From a virus, in IMG/VR virus record IMGVR_UViG_3300022200_000020, positions 1 to 64,000 of that record: a stretch of DNA of 64,000 bases; one strand, given 5' to 3'. This document shows positions 5,401-60,782 of the stretch, piece after piece; within the stretch, counting starts at the first letter, position 1, and each line of letters opens with the position of its first letter. Both the position numbers and the translations under genes were made by a program. The notes beneath the pieces were generated by a model, which saw only the letters and a list, made by a program, of their open reading frames with translations, was not told the origin of the DNA and did not search any database.

Positions 5401-6143
5401 TCGTTTGAATACCATTTGTTAAGTACATACTCAAGTGTACTTACTTCATTTAACCCGTATAAATCTTTATTGAGATTAAAATTATTAACAATTTCTTTTG
5501 CTACAGGCTCAATAGCATCAATTTCATATGAATATGTACTAATATACATATCCGGGTCATAGGATAATGCATTTAATCTAGTAAAATCTTTAGTTGCTTT
5601 ATCTAGCTTAAGAAAATGCTGCCCATCAGTATATTGAGTAAATCTTTCTTCTATTAAAACCTTATAATGTTCCCATGTAGTAAGGTAATTTTTTAGTGTT
5701 AGACCATTAATTTTTAAAAGAAAGCCCATGCCGTTTAATCCGAATGATCTCCATGCGGCAACGACATAGGCTTCTGAAACCAAAAAACGTATGACATAAT
5801 CTAAATTATCTGTTTCATCTATATCATAATAGATATATGATGTCAGATTATCGTCAGAAAGTTCTGACTTTTTTCTTTTTTTACCTTTTAAATCAATAGA
5901 CCACGTAATAGCACCAGTGCTATTTTTTACATAGTCATAGTAATTAACCTTGACATTTTTGCCATATTGAAAAAGGTTATATATTTTTTCAGTATTCTTT
6001 TTTCCAGATATACGTGCTTGAATAATATCCTTTTTCAAGGGATTATTTTTTATAAATTCGTATCCCTGTTCAAGAGTTACAGATTCATTGCTAGTCCCAC
6101 TTTTGTTCAAGGCTTCAAACCTTGAAAATTTTATCTCAGTCAT
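2403..6143 (-). CDS. replication protein: VirE_N/BT4734-like primase-type domain fused to SF2 helicase
   Basis: 1246 residues. Residues about 90-215 contain YYDID, a Gly-rich GLNGMGFLLKI and ATKDFTRLNALSYDPD, the pattern of the Bacteroidota VirE N-terminal/BT4734-like domain, which is related to archaeo-eukaryotic primases. A superfamily 2 helicase core follows: Walker A AYTGTGKTT (about 555-563), Walker B VDEAQN (about 640), motif III WTGT (about 677) and motif VI-like QVVNRFRK (about 819). About 400 unassigned residues follow. The order suggests an initiator or primase-helicase, comparable in plan to herpes origin-binding helicases; that role is inferred. A host-type promoter lies just upstream, which suggests early expression. 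Confidence 0.7.
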   Translation of the reverse strand: MTEIKFSRFEALNKSGTSNESVTLEQGYEFIKNNPLKKDIIQARISGKKNTEKIYNLFQYGKNVKVNYYDYVKNSTGAITWSIDLKGKKRKKSELSDDNLTSYIYYDIDETDNLDYVIRFLVSEAYVVAAWRSFGLNGMGFLLKINGLTLKNYLTTWEHYKVLIEERFTQYTDGQHFLKLDKATKDFTRLNALSYDPDMYISTYSYEIDAIEPVAKEIVNNFNLNKDLYGLNEVSTLEYVLNKWYSNDDSINNSEGRLNYYFYRQYFSETNILGIEMEIALSYLEDKANEDKYNLLLGYRNIGTVSGFASQIYNSYGGQFGTFYENCINEIEGTIVDFNVLFVGTLKKQLDYISFLEAKLNINNFTRKNIKELTIAVKEKGIAKETFIEYLLNHSSNNTYIYLVHKIYSNPYFIYGVVVDNDKKKRLEQQIALINEKKEAGYNVHENVSGKVGDYLILDESNQYKMLYKYFVNTMQNGISKNYALTYIQENKVNENNIDLNDYYDWTFEVNAYLFGIKWEKKIIAEKTIAKNTYVLKDDQYLSDLNLQYCDKTIMWAYTGTGKTTNICSNISGKRIVLVPVIPLLESMENAHKASVFYGVKKNINPKRDLIICTYSSFPALFHILSTSPQYNIDDYSLHVDEAQNFITSSSEKFRAEDMLFILNHLNYFKKVVMWTGTYIKNIIPEFQDYEIIKVIKERLKYFSNVLYSDKPAATESLCNKDGLNIIYLQSKKMERELGTFKNYFIEKGWEEEKMLFLNNDNKTHPSFEHIIKKELIEEKYNLVFCTSLVAEGLNINNLNVSTLHFCTAESVYIMEQVVNRFRKTVPENIYTYQKYSDEVPDFYFDGILQYQKELVELTNEIKKITYKTQSKVLLDTLNNQVHMYLKSHNNYEINYLTIAHEAYLKELQYCNRDKEYMAELLKEYSWIYRGNIVVEETIDNATKKRLKNLRRNIKNDIFEKQVAIKTNIIENETIDQIKDSIKDENINVLALKSDLPDFEFQIRKNIVYLYRHMTLNDVWNVMEEWQNNIFNNLWYKKFSNQLRIEKQEREKYFDNRVDYHSLFAKELKNRYERWFKEDKKPSYLKQGLIALVNDIKTKVGDSPIDSFGDAKTLLSQFFCIEQVLDANKNIRYKLSCINGQSEEIEHYHMYKSLINSALNGNIPNNITKEFINRYTINFRKNLFACSKIDFLSPVSEAQTFKMLQYYCNLEHKGRGMYEIQDVSTYINEEKKELKRKKVVSLEIND

Positions 6144-37628: not shown

Positions 37629-38486
37629 ATGAAAATCGTTTTAAATAAATATTTAAATAAAATAAAATTTATCATAAAAAACGATAAAGTATTGTTTTTT
37701 CAGATAGTATTATTATTGTTATTATTATTAGTTATTTATCGTGGATTTCATCACTTACCTGATAAAACAGAAATAAATGAAATTCTCATGAATAGTAAAC
37801 AAAAAAACCTGTATATTATTGATGTTGGACATGGATATACAGGTGAATGTAAGGGTAATCATGTAAAATTGGAGGATGGTAGTTGTTTTTACGAATATCA
37901 ATATTGCTATGATCTTTATAAAAAGATAGACATTATGTTAAAAAAATCTAATATTTTTTCCATTTTATTAGATACTAATGTTTTAGTGCAAAACATGCCT
38001 ATTAATACAAGAGTAAGAGAGGTTAATAATATAGTAAGAAAAGTTAATAGAGCAAATATTACAACATTAGTGATTAGCTTACATGCAAATTATACTAGTA
38101 AAAACCCTGATGCAACAGGAGTTGAAGTTTATATAAACTTAGAAAAGCAAAAAAATATTTTAGATGCAAGTTTATATAATGAAGCAATGACAAATGCAGC
38201 CATACTTTTTGCTAATAACCTAGCTCATTATAGTGGACTACCATTAAGAAAGTCTAGGGGTAAGGAATATAAATTATCAGAATTAAGGCCAGAAGATTGC
38301 GGCATTTTAAAAAGAACAAAGTGCTATGCGATTTTAACAGAAAACGGTTTTTTCTCCAATGAGAAAGAAAGAAATAAAATGCAAACCGATAAATTTAAAA
38401 CAAATATTGCGTATGCACATTATGCCAGTATATGTGAAATAGAGGGAATTATCCCTTATCCTATAAATATTTTTTATGAACAATAA
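37629..38486 (+). CDS. N-acetylmuramoyl-L-alanine amidase (Amidase_3), membrane-anchored endolysin
   Basis: 285 residues. An N-terminal membrane segment (about 24-41, with a run of eight Leu residues) follows a basic start, so the enzyme is probably exported as a signal anchor. The zinc amidase motifs are DVGHGY (about 66), a Glu in YEYQYCYD (about 90), SLHAN (about 150) and the catalytic Glu in TENGFF (about 237). These enzymes cut the bond between muramic acid and the peptide stem, and this one is the likely lysis enzyme. Signal-anchor endolysins can leave the membrane when it depolarises; whether this one does is inference. Confidence 0.75.
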   Translation: MKIVLNKYLNKIKFIIKNDKVLFFQIVLLLLLLLVIYRGFHHLPDKTEINEILMNSKQKNLYIIDVGHGYTGECKGNHVKLEDGSCFYEYQYCYDLYKKIDIMLKKSNIFSILLDTNVLVQNMPINTRVREVNNIVRKVNRANITTLVISLHANYTSKNPDATGVEVYINLEKQKNILDASLYNEAMTNAAILFANNLAHYSGLPLRKSRGKEYKLSELRPEDCGILKRTKCYAILTENGFFSNEKERNKMQTDKFKTNIAYAHYASICEIEGIIPYPINIFYEQ

Positions 38487-42909: not shown

Positions 42910-43602
42910 ATGTATAGGATTAATAAGAAAAAGTTGGCTGCTGCACTAAATGAAGCAGTATTACTTCAGAAAAAAAACTATAAAAATTTAACATTTGTTG
43001 ATGAGATTTTTAATTCATTTGATATACATATAGATAACATCAAGCATATTATTAGAGAGAGAAGTACAAACAATGCTAAAAGATTATATACATACCTTTT
43101 AGAAGAATGTAATTGTAGCAGCAGATATGATGATGTTGCACCTAAGTTAAATTATCCACCTGAGGAAACTATGCTATATGATGATGATGTCAATGAACAA
43201 TATGGAGATGAGTATTATGATGATGATTATAGCTCGGTAGACGATAATATAGAAAAAACAAGGGATGTTTTTCGTATTATTTATGACAGAGAACCAACAG
43301 ATGAAGAGTTAGAAGATTTTATGGATAGTGATATATTCCACGATTATATCAGAAGTGAAGAAGAATCAAGGGGAGATGCCCAGCATGATTTTAATCGAGA
43401 TATGGCCTTAGGAGAATCAAGTGATGAAGAAGATCAAACACCAAGTTTTTGGGCAGCATATAATGAATCTGTTAAAAAAATGAAAATAGCTAGAAAAAAA
43501 CTTAGTGAATCTGACGTATTAAAAATTAAGTCAGAAGGTTATGACGTTAAAGCTTTCGTGAATGAAGATGATATGATGGAATATGTTAAATCCCTAAAAT
43601 AG
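42910..43602 (+). CDS. hypothetical acidic protein, 230 residues
   Basis: No family recognised. The N-terminus is basic and helical, the centre (about 85-170) very acidic (YDDDVNEQYGDEYYDDDY), and the C-terminus (IKSEGYDVKAFVNEDDMMEY) resembles the KKGYVVES/KKGYIVEG ends of two genes in the head block. A late-promoter motif precedes it, so it may be a capsid core or assembly protein. Its last codons form one arm of the terminator hairpin at 43581-43615. Confidence 0.5.
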   Translation: MYRINKKKLAAALNEAVLLQKKNYKNLTFVDEIFNSFDIHIDNIKHIIRERSTNNAKRLYTYLLEECNCSSRYDDVAPKLNYPPEETMLYDDDVNEQYGDEYYDDDYSSVDDNIEKTRDVFRIIYDREPTDEELEDFMDSDIFHDYIRSEEESRGDAQHDFNRDMALGESSDEEDQTPSFWAAYNESVKKMKIARKKLSESDVLKIKSEGYDVKAFVNEDDMMEYVKSLK

Positions 43603-43615
43603 GGATTTAACATAT
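43581..43615. terminator. bidirectional terminator made from two overlapping gene ends
   Basis: A perfect 16-base stem (ATATGTTAAATCCCTA and its complement) with a 3-base loop spans the stop codons of the convergent 230-residue and Clp-like genes, which overlap by 9 bases. U-rich sequence follows on the plus strand. Confidence 0.7.
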
Positions 43616-45582
43616 AATTTTTTGTTTTCTTTTAAAAGGTTCTTAAAATTTCTAGCCGTCATTTTTTCATTAAATGCTTTTTGAATAATAGCACTAGTAA
43701 TTTTAAGACTATATATCTTAGCAAATTTTTTATAATCATTTAATAATAGCCCATCAAAGTTAATTATATTTGTTATTGCATCAGAAAAACTTTTAGTAAA
43801 ATATTTTTCAAGATTTATTACATTTTCGTTTTGTACATATGAAATAAGATTATTCTTATTAAGACTACTAATGAAAAATATAAAAGCGTTTTCAAATGAA
43901 AACTCATCTCCTTTACCATCTAATAATACACCATTTTCAAGAATACTAGAAAATAGATCAATAAAACTTGGGTGTGCCAATTCTATGTTTTCAACTATGA
44001 TAACAGTATTAGGATTATTATGTATATAATTAGTTAATAACCCACCCTCTGAATACCCAACATACCCTGCGCTTGCACCAATTAATTTGTTTATACTAAT
44101 CTTATCTGTGTATTCACTTGCATTAATTATCAATTTCTTTTTGTTACATAATTCATTGGCAATTAACGTGGCTAAATATTTTTTACCCATTCCTTTCTCG
44201 CCATTTAACAGGAATGATATAACTCCTGATTCATTTCCATTATTATATAGAGAAGAAATGATTTTTTGTACACCAAGTTCATTACCTGCATATTTCTTCA
44301 TAATATTATTATAACAGTCCTTATAAAATCTTTTACTATTTTTCACAATAGAAATATCATAATTATCTGTAAAAGTTGTTTCTATATCTTTCAAGGTGAC
44401 AATAACATTTTCAGTGGGGGCAGTTTTAATTTTTACTTTTGAGTAGGCACAGTCTAAAATTTCTAAAGCAGCATCAGGCATATATAGATCATTAAGGTAT
44501 TTTACTCCATTGTCATATATAGATTTCAATGCTTTTTCATTACATGAAAAATTGTTTGAGGCTGCAAAATTTTGCATAATTTTTATTGTAGTGTGTTCAT
44601 CAGTTTGATTGATTTGAATCTTACTAACTCTTCTCACAAAAGCTTTGTCTTTTTTTAAATGTCTGTTAAATTCATCATTAGTAGTTGCAAGAATCACCTG
44701 TAATTTACCCCTTGCCATTGGTTCTTTTAAAACATTTAAAATAGATAAACCATCTTCTCCACCTGCTCCATTAATCAATACATGAGCTTCATCGAAAAAT
44801 AAAACTATGTTTTCATTATCCTGAAAATCTTTTATTAAAAATTCAAGTTTTTTCTCCAAATCACCTCTAAATTTAGTTCCGCTTACTAATTTATTAACAT
44901 CAATGTGGAGAATTTTTTTATCTATGTAGTTTGGTAAACTTTCCACTATTTTAGTTTTACCAACCCCAGCCTGACCTACTAATAGTATATTACGTTTAGT
45001 AATTTTATTTAATATTTCTATGCATAGTTTTATTTCTCTATCTCTACCATATAAAATATTATTATTAGGGTTCAATTCAGAAAGATAATCTTTTTGGGGG
45101 CTAACTTTCTGAACAATTTCATCTTCTTCTGATAAAAAATCTTCTCCATCGTTGACAAATTCATTTTCAAAAAACACTTCTGACCCGCTAAGATTAAAAT
45201 CTTGTTCATACGTTTCAATAAATGTTTTTTGCGAAACGTTAAGATAATTAATTGCTCCGTAAGCAAGCCATCTCATATCAAATAGTTGTATAAAAATATC
45301 ATATACTGTTGCTTCATTAAAACATTCAAATGATGCCATGAATCTAATCAGTTCATCTGAATATTTTTGATCAGTAATTGGATATTTTTTTACATTTGCC
45401 TCTATTTTAGAAGTTACCATAGGTATTTTACTATCCAATCCCTCTAATGTATGAATAATAGTACTATAGCCTTCTGCTAATATAGAATACAAGAAAATCT
45501 CCGTGGTAACCACATTACTTTCAAAGATTGAAAAAGCCCATCTTTCAGAATCTTCCAATAAATTTTTTCCGTTTAGTATCAT
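43594..45582 (-). CDS. ClpA/ClpB-like AAA+ ATPase with two ATPase modules
   Basis: 662 residues. The first AAA+ module has Walker A GQAGVGKT (about 203-210), Walker B VLFFDEAH (about 262) and an arginine finger region (KAFVRRVSKI). The second has a poorer Walker A GEKGMGKK (about 462) and a Walker B-like VIIVENIE in which the usual Asp-Glu is Glu-Asn, so it may bind but not hydrolyse ATP. The first 170 residues resemble a Clp N-domain in place only. Clp proteins unfold or disaggregate proteins; here it could be a virion-assembly or host-takeover chaperone. It has its own host-type promoter. Confidence 0.75.
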   Translation of the reverse strand: MILNGKNLLEDSERWAFSIFESNVVTTEIFLYSILAEGYSTIIHTLEGLDSKIPMVTSKIEANVKKYPITDQKYSDELIRFMASFECFNEATVYDIFIQLFDMRWLAYGAINYLNVSQKTFIETYEQDFNLSGSEVFFENEFVNDGEDFLSEEDEIVQKVSPQKDYLSELNPNNNILYGRDREIKLCIEILNKITKRNILLVGQAGVGKTKIVESLPNYIDKKILHIDVNKLVSGTKFRGDLEKKLEFLIKDFQDNENIVLFFDEAHVLINGAGGEDGLSILNVLKEPMARGKLQVILATTNDEFNRHLKKDKAFVRRVSKIQINQTDEHTTIKIMQNFAASNNFSCNEKALKSIYDNGVKYLNDLYMPDAALEILDCAYSKVKIKTAPTENVIVTLKDIETTFTDNYDISIVKNSKRFYKDCYNNIMKKYAGNELGVQKIISSLYNNGNESGVISFLLNGEKGMGKKYLATLIANELCNKKKLIINASEYTDKISINKLIGASAGYVGYSEGGLLTNYIHNNPNTVIIVENIELAHPSFIDLFSSILENGVLLDGKGDEFSFENAFIFFISSLNKNNLISYVQNENVINLEKYFTKSFSDAITNIINFDGLLLNDYKKFAKIYSLKITSAIIQKAFNEKMTARNFKNLLKENKKLYVKSLF

Positions 45583-50805: not shown

Positions 50806-51282
50806 ATGAATTTATCTAAATGGGATTTAAGATTTATCAAGCGAGTTGATGAAGTGGCAAGCTGGTCAAAAGATAATTCTACTAAAGTTGGCTGTTTATT
50901 TGTGAAGAATAAAAAAACCTTAGTAGAAGGTTATAATGGTTTGCCAAGCTATTTAAATGATAAAAATGAATATTATCATAAAGCTCCACAAAAATATTTT
51001 TATTTTGAACATGCTGAAAGAAATGCGATTTATTTAGCACAGCAGAATGGTATTTCTTTAGAGGGGTCAACCTGTTATCTCAATTGGATTCCTTGTCCAG
51101 ATTGTATGAGAGCGATTTTATATCAAAAACCAGAAAAAATTCTTTGTGATTTAACTATCCGTGAAAAACGAGAAGATTGGAAAGATAAATTCCAAGCATC
51201 TATTCATTTGTCTAAAATGGCTGATGTTATTATCTTATTCACCCACGATGGAGTAAATTGGTCAGAACAACATAATCTTTGA
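50806..51282 (+). CDS. dCMP deaminase
   Basis: 158 residues. The zinc-binding cytidine-deaminase motifs are clear: HAERNAIY with the proton-shuttling Glu (H69-E71) and PCPDC (about 96-100) with the two Cys ligands. The N-terminus (MNLSKWDLRFIKRVDEVASW) fits phage and bacterial deoxycytidylate deaminases. It makes dUMP for thymidylate synthase encoded at 45924. It is placed between head genes rather than with the other nucleotide enzymes. Confidence 0.85.
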   Translation: MNLSKWDLRFIKRVDEVASWSKDNSTKVGCLFVKNKKTLVEGYNGLPSYLNDKNEYYHKAPQKYFYFEHAERNAIYLAQQNGISLEGSTCYLNWIPCPDCMRAILYQKPEKILCDLTIREKREDWKDKFQASIHLSKMADVIILFTHDGVNWSEQHNL

Positions 51283-51311: not shown

Positions 51312-53018
51312 ATGGTTAATCATTTAACAGGATTAAACAAATCTTTTATACCGACCGATAATCTTTTAGTAGAAAAATACAGTAATTATTCTGAACATGA
51401 TAAATTTGGGCAGTATGATAATTATAACTTCTTATTAGAAAAGACTGAACCTGAAAAGGAACAATTAAGTTTGCTTTTAGAGAATGTGTCAGGAAATGTG
51501 TCAGGTGTTTTCGCTTCTATTGCATTTCCACTTATTAAGCGTACTTTTGATAATATCATATCAAAAAGCCTAGTTACATTTTACCCAATTGATAAAGCAT
51601 CAAGTAAAATTTTCTTTTTTTATCCTAAAGTATCATCTCGCAGAGAAAGCGGTGGTAAGCAAATTCACATAGAAAATACAAGTGATTATAAATGTTTAGG
51701 ATTAAATTGCCCTGAGCCTTTTGTGGAAAGCTGTAAATCATTTTACGATCAGCTTTATAATGATTCTTTTTATGATCAATCTAAAGGAGCGTATGAAGTT
51801 ATAGTTGCTACTGGGACTCCTTTTTCATTTGATGCAGATAGTTGTATAGTACCTTATACAGATGTCACCTCACAAGATAATACTATTAGAGCCATTGGTT
51901 TTAAAATAACTGGATTAAATAACAAGCCAGTCTTTAGTAATGGCAGAGGAAATGAAATAGCTGTTGAAGAATTTATTACATCTTTTAGAGTTATAAACTC
52001 TGGTGCTCCTATTGTTGATTCATCTGATAATGTAATATATCAAACAGGTGATGAAGTTAAGGGAAGATTTTTCGCACAAAAATATGGGGATAGTATTGTA
52101 CATGTTGATGATTTATGCGATGAAAATGGGTATATTTTATATGAAATTGATTTAAAACATCCTGTTAGTTCTGGCAATCCAACAACATATGATGGATATG
52201 TTGGAGTTTTACCTAACGTTAATATTTCTTCAAATTTTACATTTACTTGGAAACGATATGATACCCTAGAAAATAATGGACAAATTAGTGAATATGGTTT
52301 TGATTTACGTGGTATAGATTTACAAGTTGTTGATCGAATGACTAGAGCGATATGGTCACCACAACTTCAAATGGATTTACAAGCATATCAAAATATTAAC
52401 GCTAATAAAGAATTTATTAATTCTATGTCGCAGCAAATTGCCTTAGAAATTGATAGAGAGATTTTACTTGATTTAAAAAACGCTGCGCCTTGGGCATTAA
52501 GATTTGATTATTTAGGATGGCAAAATACCACTCAAACTTACAATCAAGAGTTATGGAACAAAAAATTATTCGACAAGATTAATGAGGTTTCAGCACAAAT
52601 ACATAAAACGACTAATTGTGGTGGAGCAAATTGGGTTGTTCTTAGTCCTGAAGCTTCTGCTCTGTTCCCTAATTTAAGCATTTTAAGAGAGGGAGAGACA
52701 CTTACAGAAAAAGATAGGTACAACATAGGTCTAAAGAGAGTAGGAACCTTAGGAGGGAGATATGACGTATTTATTGATGCTTTTGCTAAACCTAATGATA
52801 TACTTATTGGGTTTAAACCAGAATCATTGACAAATGTGGGGTATATTTATGCACCATATGTTTTAGCACAACCAAGTGTTCCTGTTATGAATCCAAATAA
52901 TTTCTCTATAAATCAGATGTTAATGACTAGATATGCAAAGAAATTTACTAATAGCAAGATGTATGGGAAAATTTACGTAGATAATATACCTACATTTAAT
53001 ACATTTGAAAGTCGATAA
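51312..53018 (+). CDS. major capsid protein, T4 gp23-like
   Basis: 568 residues, close to T4 gp23. Characteristic segments are the N-terminal ...SGVFASIAFPLIKRTFDN, the MTRAIWSPQLQMDLQAYQNI helix (about 345-365), SMSQQIALEIDREILLDL (about 374-392) and the C-terminal IYAPYVLAQ and MTRYAKKF stretches, which follow the gp23 HK97-fold pattern. It builds the capsid shell. A late-promoter motif precedes it and a strong intrinsic terminator follows 28 bases after the stop. In T4 the protein is trimmed by a prohead protease; the cut site was not located here. Confidence 0.85.
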   Translation: MVNHLTGLNKSFIPTDNLLVEKYSNYSEHDKFGQYDNYNFLLEKTEPEKEQLSLLLENVSGNVSGVFASIAFPLIKRTFDNIISKSLVTFYPIDKASSKIFFFYPKVSSRRESGGKQIHIENTSDYKCLGLNCPEPFVESCKSFYDQLYNDSFYDQSKGAYEVIVATGTPFSFDADSCIVPYTDVTSQDNTIRAIGFKITGLNNKPVFSNGRGNEIAVEEFITSFRVINSGAPIVDSSDNVIYQTGDEVKGRFFAQKYGDSIVHVDDLCDENGYILYEIDLKHPVSSGNPTTYDGYVGVLPNVNISSNFTFTWKRYDTLENNGQISEYGFDLRGIDLQVVDRMTRAIWSPQLQMDLQAYQNINANKEFINSMSQQIALEIDREILLDLKNAAPWALRFDYLGWQNTTQTYNQELWNKKLFDKINEVSAQIHKTTNCGGANWVVLSPEASALFPNLSILREGETLTEKDRYNIGLKRVGTLGGRYDVFIDAFAKPNDILIGFKPESLTNVGYIYAPYVLAQPSVPVMNPNNFSINQMLMTRYAKKFTNSKMYGKIYVDNIPTFNTFESR

Positions 53019-53029
53019 ATTTACTGTAT

Positions 53030-54121
53030 ATGTTATACACATTATTATGCATATTATGTTTTATAAACATAATATGCATTTTTTTTAATTTTTTATTTTA
53101 TAAGCGTAATTATTATAAAATAAAAATTATAGATGGAATACAAAAAAACAGTCAGGTTTGCATATACGTTAAAGATAAAAATCATAGATTTAATTTTGTA
53201 ACTGATAATTTTGAAGAATTTGCACCATTATATAACGTGTTTGGATTTACAGATTATGATTTTTTCCCTAAAGACATTGCTGATAAATTTAGAGAGGGAG
53301 ACTTACATGTGAGGTCAACACATGAAAGGTTAAATATTATTGATGCATTAGAATTAGGAGATAATGTTTTATATTATAATTCATCTAAATTTATGATTGA
53401 TAACGAAAACATGTGTGGTGTAAGCATAGATATAACTAATGAAATTAAAAAAAGTGAAAAGGTACAAGAAACGAATAATTTTTTAACTCATATAAATTAC
53501 ATAATAAGACATGATTTATATAACTCAATAAATTTAGTTAATCAGTTTTTTATTAAAATCGAAAAAAAAATTGAAATAGAATATTTAGAAGAGCATAAAA
53601 TAATTGGAGCTTTTAAAGCTTTAAAACAATGTATTTTTACTTTAAAAGAAACCTTTCAAGGGATTTGTGATTTTAGTATAATGTTGGATGATCATAAAAA
53701 ATTACCTGTTGAAAGTTTTTACTTAAGTGTAATATTAAATGATTTTTTAAAAAAAACCGCTTATTATTCATATGTAGATATAGATGAAGAAATGGGAATA
53801 ATTACAGCAAATAAATCATTGATGATAACGGCTCTTATCAATTTAATAAAAAATGGAATTAAGCACAATAATTCACAAAATAAAAAAGTAAAAATTTATA
53901 AATGTGAGAATGATCTACTTATAGAAGATAATGGGTATGGTATAACAGATGAACAACTTTCTAAATTTATAAAGCCATATTCACAAGCAAATGATAATGG
54001 TGAGGGATTAGGGTTAGGATTATCAATAACAAACCTAATTTTAAAATACCATAATTTAAATTTATCTGCTTTACCTAAAGAAAACGGTACTATTTTAGTA
54101 ATAAAAAATATATTCATATAA
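53030..54121 (+). CDS. phage-encoded sensor histidine kinase
   Basis: 363 residues. A single N-terminal membrane segment (about 4-22) with following basic residues anchors it. Residues about 35-140 look like a PAS domain (VCIYVKDKNHRFNFVTDNF, then FGFTDYDFFP). The phospho-acceptor helix has RHDLYNSINL with His at about 161, and the HATPase_c domain has the N box LINLIKNGIKHN (about 272-283), G1 EDNGYGI (about 299) and G2 GEGLGLGLSI (about 323). All the parts of a working kinase are present. It lies 11 bases behind the capsid gene, and the response regulator gene follows. The first codons form the terminator hairpin at 53047-53079. Confidence 0.85.
   Translation: MLYTLLCILCFINIICIFFNFLFYKRNYYKIKIIDGIQKNSQVCIYVKDKNHRFNFVTDNFEEFAPLYNVFGFTDYDFFPKDIADKFREGDLHVRSTHERLNIIDALELGDNVLYYNSSKFMIDNENMCGVSIDITNEIKKSEKVQETNNFLTHINYIIRHDLYNSINLVNQFFIKIEKKIEIEYLEEHKIIGAFKALKQCIFTLKETFQGICDFSIMLDDHKKLPVESFYLSVILNDFLKKTAYYSYVDIDEEMGIITANKSLMITALINLIKNGIKHNNSQNKKVKIYKCENDLLIEDNGYGITDEQLSKFIKPYSQANDNGEGLGLGLSITNLILKYHNLNLSALPKENGTILVIKNIFI
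53047..53086 (+). terminator. intrinsic terminator inside the start of the histidine kinase gene
   Basis: A perfect 15-base stem (ATGCATATTATGTTT with its complement) and a 3-base loop, followed by a run of T (53080-53086). It lies 28 bases after the capsid stop codon but inside codons 6-19 of the kinase gene, where it encodes part of the membrane segment. Confidence 0.75.
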
Positions 54122-54131
54122 TATATTTTTA

Positions 54132-54139
54132 TATTTATA
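54132..54139 (+). promoter_or_regulatory. weak candidate late promoter TATTTATA
   Basis: A TATTTATA word without the leading C lies 16 bases before the response regulator ATG. It could give this gene and the next transcription independent of the terminator upstream. Confidence 0.35.
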
Positions 54140-54155
54140 TGAAAAAAAAGTTTTG

Positions 54156-54602
54156 ATGTTTAGCAACTATAAAATAAAAACACTTTTATGTGTTGAAGAT
54201 GATATATTTTATTCATATCTTTTTCAAGATGCAGCAGAAAGTGTAGATTTAGCAATAAAAGTAAAAGCCATTCATTCTTCTGATGAAGCAGAAGAATGGT
54301 TTATTAAATCAAGAAAGCGGGGGGATGTTCCTGATTGTATTTTTGTGGATGTAAATCTTAAAGGGTCTTCTTTTTCTGGGTTAGAACTTATAAGAAAAAT
54401 TAATTTTGAACATGGAAATAACGTTGTTATTGGTGTTATATCAACATCTAATGATGATCAAGAAAAAGCAACAGCAGTAAAAAATGGGGCACAATTCTGG
54501 ATTTTGAAAGACACGTTAGATTTAGAAAAAGTATTAATTGATTTTAAAGATGATTTTATAGGTTTTCAAAACAGATTATTACCATTTAAAACCTATAAAT
54601 AA
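54156..54602 (+). CDS. CheY-like response regulator (receiver domain only)
   Basis: 148 residues from the ATG; a TTG one codon earlier is possible. All receiver residues are present: acidic pair D15-D16 (in CVEDD), phospho-acceptor D65 (FVDVNL), Ser/Thr at 96-97 (VISTSND) and the conserved Lys118 (WILKD). There is no output domain, so it must act through a partner. The histidine kinase lies 34 bases upstream, and the next gene's ATG overlaps its stop, making a three-gene unit. Confidence 0.85.
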   Translation: MFSNYKIKTLLCVEDDIFYSYLFQDAAESVDLAIKVKAIHSSDEAEEWFIKSRKRGDVPDCIFVDVNLKGSSFSGLELIRKINFEHGNNVVIGVISTSNDDQEKATAVKNGAQFWILKDTLDLEKVLIDFKDDFIGFQNRLLPFKTYK

Positions 54603-55204
54603 TGATTATTGATGAAAAAACATTTGAGGCTCTATATGAATTAAAAGAAACACAGGAGATTTTTTTGAGTGGAGATATAATAAAATTTATAGAGCCTCAA
54701 GATGAATTACAAAAAGTATATTTGTTTGAATGTATTACTTTATATAAAAATTCTATAAGAAATCGTTTAAGTACTTCACAACTAGTTTTAAAACAAAATT
54801 TACAACTAGTAAAAAAGGAAACTATTTTATTAGAAACGTTAGAACAATTAAGAATTGAAAGTGAAGCAGTAAAAGAAGAAAAAAATAGAACTAAAGAAAT
54901 ATTAGTTTTAACCGAAAGAGATAAAGTTTCTGCTGAACAGCAAGTAGAGATACTCAAAACCAGTAAAAAATTAGACATATTAAATAGAGGGTTACTTTTT
55001 AGTATGATAGCTATATTTACTATTATTGTTAGTGTTACTCTTATTCAAACTGCTTTTCTGTATAAAAATTTAGAAACTGATCAAATTATAGGCAATGTGT
55101 TTAATATATACAATATCTTACTAACTGGTTTACTTACAATAGTCAGCAGTGTCTTAGGGGTAAAAATAGGGTTAAATAATAATAAGGAAGAAAAAACAGT
55201 TTAA
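54602..55204 (+). CDS. coiled-coil membrane protein, candidate output of the two-component system
   Basis: 200 residues. A soluble N-terminal part with a long coiled coil (about 65-122) is followed by two membrane helices (about 130-153 and 166-190) and a charged end. No family recognised. It is translationally coupled to the response regulator by a TAATG overlap. Because the regulator has no output domain, this protein is a reasonable partner; it could relay the signal to the membrane, for example affecting lysis timing or superinfection. That role is inference. Confidence 0.55.
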   Translation: MIIDEKTFEALYELKETQEIFLSGDIIKFIEPQDELQKVYLFECITLYKNSIRNRLSTSQLVLKQNLQLVKKETILLETLEQLRIESEAVKEEKNRTKEILVLTERDKVSAEQQVEILKTSKKLDILNRGLLFSMIAIFTIIVSVTLIQTAFLYKNLETDQIIGNVFNIYNILLTGLLTIVSSVLGVKIGLNNNKEEKTV

Positions 55205-56552: not shown

Positions 56553-56626
56553 CGGAGATTAGAGCAGTCTGGTAGCTTGCTTGGCTCATAACCAAGAGGT
56601 CATTGGTTCAAATCCCTATATGTGCA
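56553..56626 (+). tRNA. tRNA-Met (CAT), degenerate 3' half
   Basis: The D arm (TAGAGCAGTCTGGTAGCT) and anticodon arm (CTTGG CTCATAA CCAAG) are as in initiator-type tRNA-Met of Bacteroidota. The T stem (ATTGG against CCCTA) and the acceptor strands do not pair properly, so the 3' half looks replaced or decayed. Confidence 0.5.
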
Positions 56627-56913: not shown

Positions 56914-56989
56914 GGTCTATGGGGCTGCTTGGGTTGGCCGTCGGATTGTCTATCCGAATATCAGATGGGTTCAAATCCCATATAGACTG
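56914..56989 (+). tRNA. tRNA-Asp (GTC), copy 1
   Basis: Acceptor GGTCTAT/ATAGACT, anticodon arm TCGGA TTGTCTA TCCGA, T arm ATGGG TTCAAAT CCCAT. The 5' half is nearly identical to the second tRNA-Asp at 57638, so one is a duplicate. Confidence 0.75.
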
Positions 56990-56995
56990 CAACAT

Positions 56996-57075
56996 GCTCC
57001 TGTACGCAAAATAGGCAAAGCGGCCACACTTAGGATGTGGTGATTTATTTGTGGGTTCAAGTCCCACTGGGAGTA
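56996..57075 (+). tRNA. tRNA-Leu (TAG)
   Basis: Acceptor GCTCCTG/TGGGAGT, D stem CGC/GCG, anticodon arm CCACA CTTAGGA TGTGG, T arm GTGGG TTCAAGT CCCAC. The variable region (TGATTTATTT) is short for a tRNA-Leu. Confidence 0.75.
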
Positions 57076-57156
57076 CAATTTAATAAGTTTCAAGTAAAAG
57101 TGCTTACTTAAAGACAAATAGTGATTTGATCTTTTTAATGAAGATTATTAATATAT

Positions 57157-57230
57157 CTAGATGTAGCTTAAATGAATAAAGCACCATGTTTGGGACATGG
57201 AAGATGTCAATTTGAGTTTGACCATCTGGA
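57157..57230 (+). tRNA. tRNA-Pro (TGG)
   Basis: Acceptor CTAGATG/CATCTGG, anticodon arm CCATG TTTGGGA CATGG, T arm GTCAA TTTGAGT TTGAC. Confidence 0.75.
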
Positions 57231-57551
57231 CTTTTTTTGAAAAAGGAATCTCTAACGTATGTCGAAAGAGATATAGGGCTGGCAGTTAGCCTATTGCAGT
57301 TTAAAAATAACTTTTATACGTTTTTTTAAACGCATAAAGAAATTAATATATAACTATTAATTTTCATACTGTTGGAAACCAATGATTGCATATGAAAATG
57401 TAATCTTGTTTACTAAACACGTTTTTAGTGGTTGCACTGAACCCTTGATTTTTAGTAAAAAATCATAAACAGGCTACAAAGATCAGTTTATTAAAACTGT
57501 CAATAATAACGTTAGGTTAGCTGCCATTGATTAATTTCATAAAAAGCTCCA
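57231..57551 (+). other. 320-base gap with several hairpins and no recognised gene
   Basis: No tRNA or convincing protein frame. It holds an 11-base hairpin with one mismatch at 57313-57338 (TTTATACGTTT arm), an 8-base hairpin at 57446-57465 (TGATTTTT arm) and smaller pairings. It may be a structured RNA or decayed tRNA genes. Confidence 0.4.
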
Positions 57552-57625
57552 CAGGAGTTAGCTCAGTTGGTTAGAGCGTCATCTTTACATGGTGAATGTC
57601 AATGGTTCGATCCCATTACTCTTGT
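57552..57625 (+). tRNA. tRNA-Val (TAC)
   Basis: Acceptor CAGGAGT/ACTCTTG, D arm GCTCAGTTGGTTAGAGC, anticodon arm TCATC TTTACAT GGTGA, T arm AATGG TTCGATC CCATT. Confidence 0.8.
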
Positions 57626-57637
57626 CATTTTAATTAT

Positions 57638-57713
57638 GGTCTATGGGGCTGCTGGATGTGGCCACTCCCTTGTCGCGGGAGAGATCAGACGGGTTTGAAT
57701 CCCGTATAGACCG
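57638..57713 (+). tRNA. tRNA-Asp (GTC), copy 2
   Basis: Acceptor GGTCTAT/ATAGACC fully paired, anticodon arm CTCCC TTGTCGC GGGAG, T arm ACGGG TTTGAAT CCCGT. The second Asp gene in the cluster, with a different anticodon stem. Confidence 0.75.
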
Positions 57714-57727
57714 CTTTTATTATTTAT

Positions 57728-57800
57728 GGGGCATTGATGAAACTGGCTATCATATAACACCTGCAATGTTATTTTACGGGTTCAAACCCCGTATGCTCCA
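57728..57800 (+). tRNA. tRNA-Ala (TGC)
   Basis: Acceptor GGGGCAT/ATGCTCC, anticodon arm TAACA CCTGCAA TGTTA, T arm ACGGG TTCAAAC CCCGT. Confidence 0.8.
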
Positions 57801-57856
57801 CCCAATTAATTGACTATCAGTGTTTTATGTTATGTCAGTTAATCTTTTACTTTAAT

Positions 57857-57934
57857 ACTGAGATACCCCCCTTGACTGATATTCAAAATAAAGGTAATTG
57901 GGTGAAAATATGGATTCGACCCCCATTCTCAGTA
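57857..57934 (+). ncRNA. tRNA-like element, identity unresolved
   Basis: A perfect 7-base acceptor-like pair (ACTGAGA/TCTCAGT) closes a tRNA-sized element, with a TTCGACC near the usual T loop. D and anticodon arms cannot be folded convincingly: a run of six C takes the place of the D stem. It may be a decayed or insertion-bearing tRNA. Confidence 0.35.
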
Positions 57935-57946
57935 CTTTTTTTACTA

Positions 57947-58018
57947 GCAGGTGTGGTGTAATTGGTAACATACAATCCTTCCAAGATTAAGTCGCAAGAT
58001 CGTTCCTTGTCACCTGCT
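57947..58018 (+). tRNA. tRNA-Gly (TCC)
   Basis: Acceptor GCAGGTG/CACCTGC, D arm with TAATTGGTAACA, anticodon arm CAATC CTTCCAA GATTA (one mismatch). The T loop reads ATCGTTC instead of the usual TTCGATC, which is odd. Confidence 0.65.
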
Positions 58019-58031
58019 CTGATTTTTACAT

Positions 58032-58105
58032 GCTTCTATAGCTCAACTGGATAGAGCAATTCCCTACGAAGGAATAGGTTGTTAGTTCGACTCTAACTAG
58101 AAGTA
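58032..58105 (+). tRNA. tRNA-Arg (ACG)
   Basis: Acceptor GCTTCTA/TAGAAGT, D arm GCTCAACTGGATAGAGC, anticodon arm ATTCC CTACGAA GGAAT, T arm GTTAG TTCGACT CTAAC. Confidence 0.8.
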
Positions 58106-58116
58106 CAAATTTTTAA

Positions 58117-58188
58117 AGACCTATCGTATAATGGCTATTACCCCTGATTTTGAGTCAGGAAATTCCAGTTCAAATCTGGATAGGTTTA
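58117..58188 (+). tRNA. tRNA-Gln (TTG)
   Basis: Acceptor AGACCTA/TAGGTTT, anticodon arm CCTGA TTTTGAG TCAGG, T arm TCCAG TTCAAAT CTGGA. Confidence 0.8.
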
Positions 58189-58205
58189 TTTTTTTTCTTA
58201 ATATG

Positions 58206-58236
58206 TTGCATTTGTAGTTTATTTTATGTAACTTTA
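58206..58236 (+). promoter_or_regulatory. Bacteroidota-type promoter before the HNH gene
   Basis: TTGC (58206-58209), 19 bases, TAACTTTA (58229-58236). The ATG at 58244 is only 7 bases from the -7 box, so the message would have almost no leader. Confidence 0.45.
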
Positions 58237-58243
58237 CTTTAAA

Positions 58244-58969
58244 ATGAAAAAATGGAATTTAGAGGAAACAAATAAATTAAAACTATATATAGCTCAAAGA
58301 ATGAGCTATGAAGAAATTTGTTTAAAAATGAATAGGACTTTTAGTTCGGTTGGTAATAAAGCTAGAAAATTAAATTTAACATATAATCCTAAAAAAAGAA
58401 TTTATCGAAGTTTATACATTTGTCAAAATACAAAATGTGTAAAAACATTTGAAGGATACGTTATAGCTAACCCGAAATATTGTAGTAGTTCATGTGCTGC
58501 CCAAGTAAACAATTTAAATGTTCAAAGAAATAAACAAAAAAAAATAGATTTACCTCCAAAAATAAATAAACAAAAAATAATAACACATAGTTTTTGTTTA
58601 TACTGTAAGGCTGCTAAACATAATATCTATTCAACTTACTGTAGTGTAACATGCTCTAGTGAACATAAGAGAGACATTAAGATTGGATTATGGTTAAATG
58701 GAAAGCACAGTGGACATAAAGGAAAAACTTTACAATTATGTGGTTTTGTAAAATATCATCTGAGAAAAATCAGAGGCACAAAGTGCTGTCAATGCGGGTG
58801 GGATAAAAAACACCCTATAGATGGAGCTACATGTAACCATATAGATCACATTGACGGTGATGCATCTAACAATAAAATAGAAAATTTGAGAATATTATGT
58901 CCCAACTGTCATTCATTAACAGCAAACTTTGGTTCACGTAACAAAAATTCTGCTAGAAATTTTAATTAA
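58244..58969 (+). CDS. HNH homing-type endonuclease
   Basis: 241 residues. An N-terminal helix-turn-helix (about 1-45, KMNRTFSSVGNKARKL) is followed by several Cys pairs (about 64, 85, 118, 131) and a C-terminal HNH domain with CCQCGW (about 182), NHIDHIDGD (about 198-206), the NLRILCPNCHS segment (about 212-222) and a basic end. Such nucleases spread by cutting alleles that lack them and often sit between phage tRNA genes, as here between the two tRNA groups. Confidence 0.75.
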   Translation: MKKWNLEETNKLKLYIAQRMSYEEICLKMNRTFSSVGNKARKLNLTYNPKKRIYRSLYICQNTKCVKTFEGYVIANPKYCSSSCAAQVNNLNVQRNKQKKIDLPPKINKQKIITHSFCLYCKAAKHNIYSTYCSVTCSSEHKRDIKIGLWLNGKHSGHKGKTLQLCGFVKYHLRKIRGTKCCQCGWDKKHPIDGATCNHIDHIDGDASNNKIENLRILCPNCHSLTANFGSRNKNSARNFN

Positions 58970-58971
58970 CA

Positions 58972-59003
58972 TTAGGATTAATCAGTTATTTTATTTATCT
59001 TTG
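58972..59003 (+). promoter_or_regulatory. Bacteroidota-type promoter before the lipoprotein gene
   Basis: TTAG (58972-58975), 20 bases, TATCTTTG (58996-59003), 22 bases before the ATG at 59026. Confidence 0.55.
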
Positions 59004-59025
59004 TGTCAACAAAAACAAAAAAATC

Positions 59026-59292
59026 ATGAAATTATTTTATGTTTTATTATTGATTACTGTATTGAGCTTTACTAATTGTACCGAACAAGCTAGAACAAAA
59101 GCCTTTGGAGGAACTATGACGATTGAACTGGAAAAGGGAGAACGTCTTATTGAAGCTACTTGGAAAGATACACAACTATGGTATTTAACTGAACCGATGA
59201 AAGAAGATTATGTGCCTAATACTAAAACGTTTAGAGAACAATCTTCATTTGGAATGATGGAAGGAAAAGTTGTATTTAAAGAAAGTCGATAA
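59026..59292 (+). CDS. small putative lipoprotein
   Basis: 88 residues. A hydrophobic signal peptide (KLFYVLLLITVLSF) ends at Cys18 in SFTNC, which could be lipidated, although Asn before Cys is not the classical lipobox. The mature part (FGGTMTIELEKGERLIEATW, then LWYLTEPM and SSFGMMEGKVVF) is a small beta-rich domain that recurs in phages and Bacteroidota; function unknown. It could act in superinfection exclusion at the envelope, but this is speculation. Confidence 0.55.
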   Translation: MKLFYVLLLITVLSFTNCTEQARTKAFGGTMTIELEKGERLIEATWKDTQLWYLTEPMKEDYVPNTKTFREQSSFGMMEGKVVFKESR

Positions 59293-59309
59293 TATTACAT
59301 AAGAAATCA

Positions 59310-59380
59310 GATGGTAGTACATGTAAATAATATTAATCGTTCAGTTCAGCACAGAGGTTATGTTATTTAGTACTATCATC
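59310..59380 (+). ncRNA. tRNA-sized stem-loop upstream of tRNA-Glu
   Basis: An 11-base stem (GATGGTAGTAC with GTACTATCATC, one G-T pair) closes a 71-base element that ends 4 bases before tRNA-Glu. No tRNA arms are seen inside. It could be a processing signal or a decayed tRNA. Confidence 0.35.
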
Positions 59381-59384
59381 AAAT

Positions 59385-59508
59385 TCTCCGGTGGCTTAGT
59401 TGGTTAAAGCATCCCACTTTCCTGTCCATTTATTAAGACTAATCCGTTTTAGTTTTTTAAAGGCCAAGATTAATGGGAGGATCGTGGGTTCGAGTCCCAC
59501 CCGGAGAA
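59385..59508 (+). tRNA. tRNA-Glu (TTC) with about 50 extra bases in the anticodon loop
   Basis: Acceptor TCTCCGG/CCGGAGA, D arm GCTTAGTTGGTTAAAGC and T arm GTGGG TTCGAGT CCCAC are perfect. The anticodon stem TCCCA/TGGGA is intact but encloses 57 bases instead of 7, starting CTTTC, the usual beginning of a tRNA-Glu loop. The extra segment contains inverted repeats TAATC/GATTA and ACTAA/TTAGT. Conserved arms suggest a selected, perhaps spliced, tRNA. Confidence 0.6.
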
Positions 59509-59522
59509 CATAAAAGCTAAAT

Positions 59523-60443
59523 ATGTCAAGAAACGTACAACATTCTTTATTGGGAAAAGCTAAGGCTAATAAAAAAGATGAATTTTATACACAATTTAAA
59601 GACATAGAGGGTGAATTAAAACATTATGAACATCATTTTAAAGATAAAATAGTTTATTGTAATTGTGACGATCCTAATGTTAGTAATTTTTCAAAATATT
59701 TTATTTTAAACTTTGAAAGATTAAAACTAAGAAAATTAATTTCTACTGGGTATAAGAAAGAAGGTAGAGGAGTTGGAAATCTTTATAAAAAAGATCAAAA
59801 TAAAATTATTCGTCTAGAAGGTAATGGAGATTTTAGAAGTGAAGAATGTATTGAATTGTTAAAAGAATCAGATATTGTAGTTACTAATCCTCCATTTTCT
59901 TTGTTTCGTGAATATGTAGGACAATTAATAGAATACAAAAAAAATTTTCTCATTATTGGCAATATAAATGCTCTTACCTATAAAGACATTTTTAAGCTTA
60001 TTAAAAATAATAACGCTTGGATGGGTATTAACATGGGAAGAGGAATCTCAGGGTTTATCGTTCCAGAACATTATGAGCTTTATGGGACAGAGACTAAAAT
60101 AGACGATGAAGGAAATAGAATAGTCTCACCTAATAATTGTTTTTGGTTGACAAACTTAGATACATCTAAACGACACGAAGACATCGTTCTTTCAAAAACA
60201 TATTATGGATGTGAAAGTGAATATCCAATATATAATAATTATGATGGTATCAATGTAAATAAAACAAAAGATATACCAAGGGATTACAGGGGAGCTATGG
60301 GTGTACCAATAACATTTCTGCATAAATTTAATCCAGATCAATTTGAAATAATTAAATTTAGAAAGGGAAATGATGAAAAAGATTTATCAATAAATGGCAA
60401 ATGCCCATACTTTAGAATTTTAATTAAAAATAAAAGATTATAA
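59523..60443 (+). CDS. EcoRI-type adenine-specific DNA methyltransferase
   Basis: 306 residues. The start (KKDEFYTQFKDIEGEL, about 18-33), VYCNCDDPNVSNFSKYF (about 44-60) and the catalytic NPPF (about 122-125) match the EcoRI modification methylase family. No restriction partner is adjacent, so it is an orphan enzyme, probably protecting phage DNA at GAATTC-like sites (target inferred from the family). It lies between tRNA-Glu and tRNA-Lys. Confidence 0.8.
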   Translation: MSRNVQHSLLGKAKANKKDEFYTQFKDIEGELKHYEHHFKDKIVYCNCDDPNVSNFSKYFILNFERLKLRKLISTGYKKEGRGVGNLYKKDQNKIIRLEGNGDFRSEECIELLKESDIVVTNPPFSLFREYVGQLIEYKKNFLIIGNINALTYKDIFKLIKNNNAWMGINMGRGISGFIVPEHYELYGTETKIDDEGNRIVSPNNCFWLTNLDTSKRHEDIVLSKTYYGCESEYPIYNNYDGINVNKTKDIPRDYRGAMGVPITFLHKFNPDQFEIIKFRKGNDEKDLSINGKCPYFRILIKNKRL

Positions 60444-60500
60444 AAATAGAAAGACAGAAGCTTGGCAGACAGGTGATATTAGTAAATTATATTTTTATAA

Positions 60501-60574
60501 ACCCCTATAACTCAGTTGGTTAGAGTATCGTACTTTTAATGCGAGAGTCCTTGGTTCGAGTCCAAGTAGGGGTA
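60501..60574 (+). tRNA. tRNA-Lys (TTT)
   Basis: Acceptor ACCCCTA/TAGGGGT, D arm CTCAGTTGGTTAGAG, anticodon arm TCGTA CTTTTAA TGCGA, T arm CTTGG TTCGAGT CCAAG. Confidence 0.8.
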
Positions 60575-60588
60575 CAAATTTTATTAAA

Positions 60589-60678
60589 GGGGGTGTAGCT
60601 GATGTGGTTTTAGCGGGAGACTGTTAATCTCTGATTGAAAATATTGAAATAAAGTGGGTTCGAATCCTACCGCCCCCG
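60589..60678 (+). tRNA. tRNA-Asn (GTT) with an enlarged variable loop
   Basis: Acceptor GGGGGTG/CGCCCCC, anticodon arm GGAGA CTGTTAA TCTCT, T arm GTGGG TTCGAAT CCTAC. The variable region is 21 bases and does not form a stem, against about 5 in normal tRNA-Asn. Confidence 0.7.
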
Positions 60679-60689
60679 CTTTTATTTAT

Positions 60690-60763
60690 TCTGAGGTGGC
60701 TGAATTGGTTAAGGCACGTTTCTTGTAAAAACGGTTTTGCAGGTTCGAATCCTGTCCTCAGAT
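60690..60763 (+). tRNA. tRNA-Thr (TGT)
   Basis: Acceptor TCTGAGG/CCTCAGA, anticodon arm CGTTT CTTGTAA AAACG, T arm GCAGG TTCGAAT CCTGT. It is the last tRNA of the second group. Confidence 0.8.
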
Positions 60764-60782
60764 CATTTTTTCTAAAATAAAC

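Follow-up and report, generated by a model that had tools for sequence, protein, structure and literature searches.

A histidine kinase gene, a response regulator gene and a membrane protein gene lie directly behind the gene for a T4-type capsid protein (Gp23), on the same (+) strand, within a viral DNA window of 64,000 nucleotides that comprises bases 1–64000 of a linear record of 132,834 bases (Table 1). The original prediction had placed three tandem open reading frames at these positions, and they proved to be well beyond chance. The regulator can start at a TTG at 54153 (149 aa) or at the ATG at 54156 (148 aa), 31 or 34 nt after the kinase stop codon. The G+C content across the window ranges from 24 to 33% per 2-kb segment, and HATPase_c and Response_reg each occur once in the 132.8-kb record, both inside the trio. 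Secreted-protein N termini that by eye resemble those of Bacteroidota, together with a BT4734-like domain (PF08800, 3e-6) in the protein encoded at 2403–6143, suggest a Bacteroidota host; the latter protein had no match in the phage collection.

Table 1. Features of the capsid and two-component region, in window positions
Feature	Position	Strand	Properties
T4-type major capsid protein (Gp23)	51312..53018	+	PF07068 4.6e-42; phrog_138 1.3e-35
Histidine kinase	53030..54121	+	363 aa; predicted anchor ~2-24, PAS-like 40-137, H161, HATPase_c 265-355
Terminator-like hairpin, putatively of the capsid gene	53047..53086	+	perfect 15-bp stem, 3-nt loop, seven T
Receiver-only response regulator	54156..54602	+	148 aa; PF00072 2.6e-10; predicted phospho-acceptor D65
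Third protein: long coiled coil, then two membrane helices (predicted)	54602..55204	+	200 aa; no known family

The catalytic part of the kinase is well defined, whereas its sensor and phosphohistidine regions are recognized less firmly by profiles. Pfam searches placed HATPase_c (PF02518, 1.6e-12) at 48.3 bits against a cut-off of 26.4, and Response_reg in the neighboring regulator was likewise above its cut-off; PAS_4 reached 21.6 bits (2.6e-4), under the cut-off of 23.1, and the HisKA profile gave no match up to E 0.1. The phospho-His and ATP motifs proposed from the sequence are nevertheless borne out by alignment with ten other kinases, in which the H-box, N-box, G1 and G2 motifs are in register, H161 within RHDLYNSI lines up with the H-box, and N271/N275, D300-G302-G304 and G324/G326/G328/G330 are retained. 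The solved structure closest in sequence is QseC (3jz3, 3.2e-7), and a structure model of the kinase itself was unusable (mean pLDDT 38.9). HDLYN matches what we take to be the phosphatase motif of HisKA kinases, and the protein could for this reason be able both to add and to remove phosphate. Its N terminus consists of one hydrophobic helix followed by KRNYYK, without a periplasmic sensor, and the cue would therefore be a membrane or cytoplasmic one.

The regulator is a receiver without an output domain, as had been proposed. All the predicted phosphorylation residues (E14, D15, D65, S96/T97 and K118) are in place, Response_reg is the sole profile above cut-off, and about 28 residues extend past the domain match. 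The closest PDB sequence is NarL (5.3e-5). In the absence of an output domain, the phosphorylated form would depend on binding a partner protein for its effect.

The third gene is coupled to the regulator gene by TAATG, in which its ATG overlaps the regulator stop codon, and its product fits the coiled-coil, two-helix architecture assigned to it earlier. A single-sequence model predicts helices at residues 5–22, 35–156 and 159–199 (mean pLDDT 70.6, pTM 0.30), and hydrophobic peaks fall at about 130–154 and 166–191. Lysines on the outer flanks of the peaks suggest that both ends are cytoplasmic, and the coiled coil is probably cytoplasmic as well. No Pfam family reached its cut-off (DUF4149, 14.0 bits vs 24.6), and PHROGs and NCBIfam gave no match up to E 0.1. 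Pattern-based searches of 84,980 species genomes and of the phage collection, which detect close relatives only, returned no match either, and the best PDB sequence match (E 0.51) was taken as chance.

A terminator-like hairpin overlapping the first codons of the kinase is an addition to the first reading of this locus and its most testable new point. The stem-loop itself occupies 53047–53079, with the T-run continuing to 53086, and the stem contains three G-C pairs. It begins 28 nt past the capsid stop codon, whose last base lies 12 nt before the kinase ATG, and it covers kinase codons 6–17 (6–19 with the T-run), coinciding with the stretch proposed as the membrane anchor. RNA folding of a 101-nt stretch reproduced the hairpin as drawn (z −2.54), with 2 of 200 shuffles folding as well, and 20 Markov sequences of window length yielded no such stem above 14 bp, compared with two of at least 15 bp in the window. 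When kinase codons 1–40 were recoded synonymously, a 15-bp stem arose in 2 of 20,000 draws and none was longer; the hairpin is thus hardly a by-product of the protein sequence.

Hairpins at this place are common among related phages. Among the best 80 of 582 related capsid loci, a hairpin of at least 7 pairs with a T-run lies no more than 150 nt after the capsid stop codon in 60 of the 75 that extend far enough to be scored (58 of 73 under different limits), compared with 63 of 1,500 random stretches from the same loci. These hairpins start at a median of 21 nt after the stop codon (quartiles 19 and 23), and 54 of the 60 have 4–6 G-C pairs; the hairpin described here is slightly farther downstream and poorer in G-C pairs than most of those in this set. 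The pattern suggests that a terminator shortly after the capsid gene is usual in this group of T4-like phages, and the simplest reading of the hairpin is that it is the terminator of the capsid gene. Similar terminator-like hairpins also occur inside other coding sequence, for example at 54272–54299 in the regulator gene (10–11 pairs, matching both strands), so a hairpin of this kind does not necessarily end transcription.

From its ATG, the kinase can be translated only on transcripts that extend past the hairpin, which lies inside its codons. If the hairpin does terminate, a low kinase level would result, and the kinase is unlikely simply to be expressed late together with the capsid. The original prediction that the genes act late in infection drew on their position behind the capsid gene and loses ground here, because a putative terminator, at the place usual for related capsid genes, intervenes in the first codons of the kinase. 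The T4 late-promoter motif TATAAATA was not enriched (33 observed vs 31.4 expected), and promoter-like sites were not above shuffled sequence (59 vs 65.6 expected). A separate promoter may serve the regulator and third-protein genes. Among the sites listed, no + strand terminator-like site falls between 55204 and 56777.

The trio was not found at the same site in the relatives searched, as would be expected of an accessory (moron-type) insertion. HATPase_c and Response_reg were absent from all 48 records with related capsids, namely LR756508, LR756511, PP395634 and 45 IMG/VR records, mostly fragments, drawn from the best 80 of 582 capsid loci. A Microcoleus phage, included because it has both genes, was the sole match among the 49 records profile-searched. 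The capsid–kinase–regulator–membrane protein order was found in none of the best 80 of 582 capsid loci, where the kinase, the receiver and the third protein were all missing; 50 of these loci hold at least 2.2 kb downstream. Likewise, no kinase or receiver was present in the capsid neighborhoods of LR756508, LR756511 and Mel-JY01. The absence in relatives points to acquisition of the trio in this lineage.

Kinase–regulator pairs were rare in the phage collections searched, in agreement with the original prediction. When the trio proteins were searched singly and by alignment against IMG/VR, the sole matches were two contigs identical to the window, and the Microcoleus phage kinase by itself had none; as short peptide patterns seed these scans, distant relatives can escape them. 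A kinase alignment gave two IMG/VR contigs, which, if viral, weigh against the rarity of such pairs: in L071, a kinase of phytochrome size precedes a receiver and a hybrid kinase, and L072 encodes a kinase and a receiver that is cut by the contig end. Neither contains Terminase_6N. Among ten open reading frames scanned in the L071 contig, two match Zot, two Rep_trans and one an alkyl sulfatase; the Zot and Rep_trans genes are presumably those of a filamentous prophage, and we take the L071 kinase gene to be bacterial and to flank an integrated filamentous phage. L072 was also taken for bacterial DNA, with protein evidence coming from the L071 contig alone. In the phage collection, the kinase matched 12 records at E 0.01 and 23 at E 1e-10 (counting that of the query); four of the 12 were inspected and the others judged by name. 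One of the four is the Microcoleus phage; the other three, L010, which contains an annotated regulator–kinase pair, L011 and L013, appear to be bacterial sequences deposited under a phage label. The regulator had no match there in a weak search that missed the Microcoleus phage regulator as well. The unnamed PHROGs families phrog_857 and phrog_731 match the kinase and the receiver; phage members therefore exist in PHROGs and may include complete pairs.

Bacterial genomes contain many distant relatives of the kinase. A scan seeded by short peptide patterns, beyond which nearer relatives may exist, found 48 kinase loci from many phyla. Alignments spanning at least 250 residues were obtained for 16, of which 15 show 22–25% identity in the best segment and one (L044) 37%. 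A receiver-only regulator lies directly behind the kinase in 6 of 15 laid-out loci (L064, L028, L029, L059, L027 and L043) and, by eye, in L023 too; on this basis, the pair would be a common bacterial cassette, strongly diverged. The Microcoleus phage regulator matches 14 of the 48 bacterial kinase loci, and the window's regulator and third protein match none of them.

The trio resembles bacterial pairs of a PAS kinase and a receiver-only (Rcp1/CheY-like) regulator, in which the kinase is directly followed by a single-domain receiver. The trio differs from them in being phage-borne and followed by an unrelated membrane protein, and in a kinase only 22–25% identical to theirs over long alignments. 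Its receiver has KD, where seven of eight aligned receivers have KP. The closest parallel in gene order is Microcoleus phage My-WqHQDG (OR578706), in which a 3.1-kb run of overlapping genes encodes a kinase (545 aa, with HATPase_c and HisKA), a receiver (138 aa), a second receiver (171 aa) and a further protein (179 aa). By eye, the last of these forms a coiled coil and ends in a single C-terminal helix; as in the trio, kinase and receiver are thus followed in series by a coiled-coil membrane protein. The kinases are 24% and the receivers 28% identical. Unlike the trio, the Microcoleus phage has two receivers, its last protein shows no similarity to the third protein, and no capsid gene is annotated in 8.3 kb around the cluster.

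Other phage signaling genes have been described as well. The agr locus of Clostridium phage phiCDHM1 also includes a phage histidine kinase, AgrC, which stands beside agrD/agrB among quorum-sensing genes and, according to the passages cited, has no associated response regulator in the genome (PMC3901668). In pelagiphages, a histidine kinase lies beside curli export genes, and the account of that linkage mentions no receiver partner (PMC9599517). The cREC domain of jumbo phages is a divergent receiver-like domain reported in the relevant section never to occur in histidine-kinase systems (PMC7824862), whereas the receiver of the trio is a standard one that adjoins a kinase. An Alteromonas phage is described as encoding a PhoB-like regulator (PMC8228385), and host NarX/NarL appears with viral enzymes, in the portion cited without a viral pair, in a further study (PMC5513705). 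The open-access literature, in the excerpts available, describes phages with a kinase or a regulator singly, but no phage with a complete kinase–receiver pair and a linked membrane protein.

We tentatively read the locus, at slightly less than even confidence, as an accessory stretch downstream of the capsid gene that carries a two-component cassette derived from bacteria, comprising a membrane-tethered kinase, a receiver-only regulator and a membrane-protein partner, expressed at a low level by read-through. The kinase would be tethered to the inner membrane by its single N-terminal helix, with the PAS domain in the cytoplasm, and a cytoplasmic or membrane cue would trigger autophosphorylation at H161. 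The phosphate would then pass to D65 of the regulator, which would act by protein contact, most likely on the co-translated coiled-coil membrane protein. Only read-through transcripts would yield the kinase, and little of it, because the capsid terminator lies after its start codon and within its anchor codons. The earlier suggestion that the signal reaches the third protein keeps some standing through the gene order, the TAATG overlap and the parallel order in one other phage; the two phages with this order (n = 2) are the best support for a route from kinase through receiver to membrane protein. Counting against the cassette are the missing HisKA match, the identity of all copies found, the offset and G-C-poorer hairpin, the dissimilarity of the third protein to that of the Microcoleus phage and the lack of any match of the regulator and third protein at the 48 bacterial loci.

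The anchor that overlaps the hairpin has a rival reading. The kinase might instead be soluble and start at a non-standard codon past the terminator, the apparent anchor being the capsid terminator read in frame. The anchor could indeed be a by-product of reading the terminator and T-run in frame, as its codons coincide with them, and ATT or ATA codons are present at 31, 33, 34 and 37. Some frame is also open over the same stretch (nt 10–80 after the capsid stop codon) in 39 of 76 relatives from the best 80 of 582 loci. These frames are rarely hydrophobic: an open frame exceeds a hydrophobicity of 1.7 in 2 of the 76, and frames with a start codon, found in six of these relatives, reach at most 0.95, compared with 2.75 over 19 residues here. 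The anchor is therefore not the usual by-product of such a terminator. Moreover, no in-frame ATG, GTG or TTG follows codon 1 before codon 70, which is already within the PAS domain. We consider a soluble kinase rather improbable, and anchor and terminator functions seem both to be encoded by the same bases. A more general doubt, that the trio is a functionless host fragment or assembly join, draws on the absence of HATPase_c and Response_reg from all 48 related-capsid records (mostly fragments), and the original prediction had named absence from relatives as a sign of chance host insertion. Against this, catalytic residues are intact at about 22–25% identity to the bacterial kinases found, and motifs kept through such divergence speak against a dead piece of host DNA. 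The G+C content of the trio is inside the range of the window, and the stretch recurs in two more IMG/VR contigs without a mismatch over 14,169 and 21,704 bases, although the three records are not necessarily independent and could stem from related samples. An accidental origin of this kind is very improbable.

If the genes are functional, their targets may still differ from those of the cassette reading. A receiver-only regulator without an output domain would also suit a pair that reprograms or drains host signaling, either by kinase action on host regulators or by passage of phosphate from host kinases to the lone receiver, in which case the third gene would be a separate one; phages are described as targeting host two-component systems (PMC10714779). 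Yet the adjacent kinase and receiver both retain catalytic residues that a pure phosphate sink does not need, and the third gene overlaps the regulator stop codon, which makes this alternative unlikely, if worth serious attention. The original prediction instead gave the timing of lysis or a response to superinfection, late in infection, as examples of the trio's role; on such a reading, the regulator would switch a third protein of holin-like or exclusion type. The two membrane helices and coiled coil of that protein and the order of the genes behind the capsid fit that role, but no holin, antiholin or exclusion family matched it in Pfam, PHROGs or NCBIfam, the amidase gene (37629–38486) is about 14.5 kb upstream, and a putative terminator stands between the trio and capsid transcription. 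We therefore regard a part in lysis or superinfection as distinctly improbable.

The cassette reading, if true, would matter mainly in two respects. Reading the host's signaling, or interfering with it, is the more familiar phage strategy; with its own complete kinase–receiver pair and a linked membrane protein, a virus could sense the cell and act without transcription. A capsid terminator overlapping kinase anchor codons would in turn be a compact and directly testable control device. A bolder version is that the anchor shares bases with the terminator so that passage of the polymerase, or of a ribosome following closely, sets kinase output; the sensor would then be coupled to capsid expression and translation, and kinase, receiver and membrane effector would form a complete transcription-free line. 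We put this forward as a rather unlikely proposal.

Several other elements were observed in the record. A dCMP deaminase gene (50806–51282) lies immediately 5′ of the capsid gene, and a relative of it is near the capsid gene in 6 of the best 80 of 582 related loci. A perfect 16-bp hairpin at 43581–43615 stands at the ends of the gene at 42910–43602 and the opposite-strand gene at 43594–45582, and is probably a terminator common to both converging genes. Downstream of the trio, 12 tRNA genes occupy 56914–60764, preceded by a weak partial tRNA match at 56558–56621 (35.5 bits). An Rfam tRNA match of 124 nt at 59385–59508 (56.5 bits), missed by ARAGORN, represents a tRNA into which about 50 nt are inserted, perhaps as an intron-like element. 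The tRNA region also contains an EcoRI-type adenine methyltransferase gene (59523–60443; PF13651, 8.2e-126), with an HNH-like protein, slightly under cut-off, encoded upstream at 58244–58969. Outside the window, record positions 98177–102543 (14677–19043 of L007) hold two pairs of a short open reading frame resembling an IS607 resolvase by eye and a TnpB-like open reading frame, the first TnpB being 39–43% identical to its eight best plasmid matches, which are cyanobacterial and Campylobacter.
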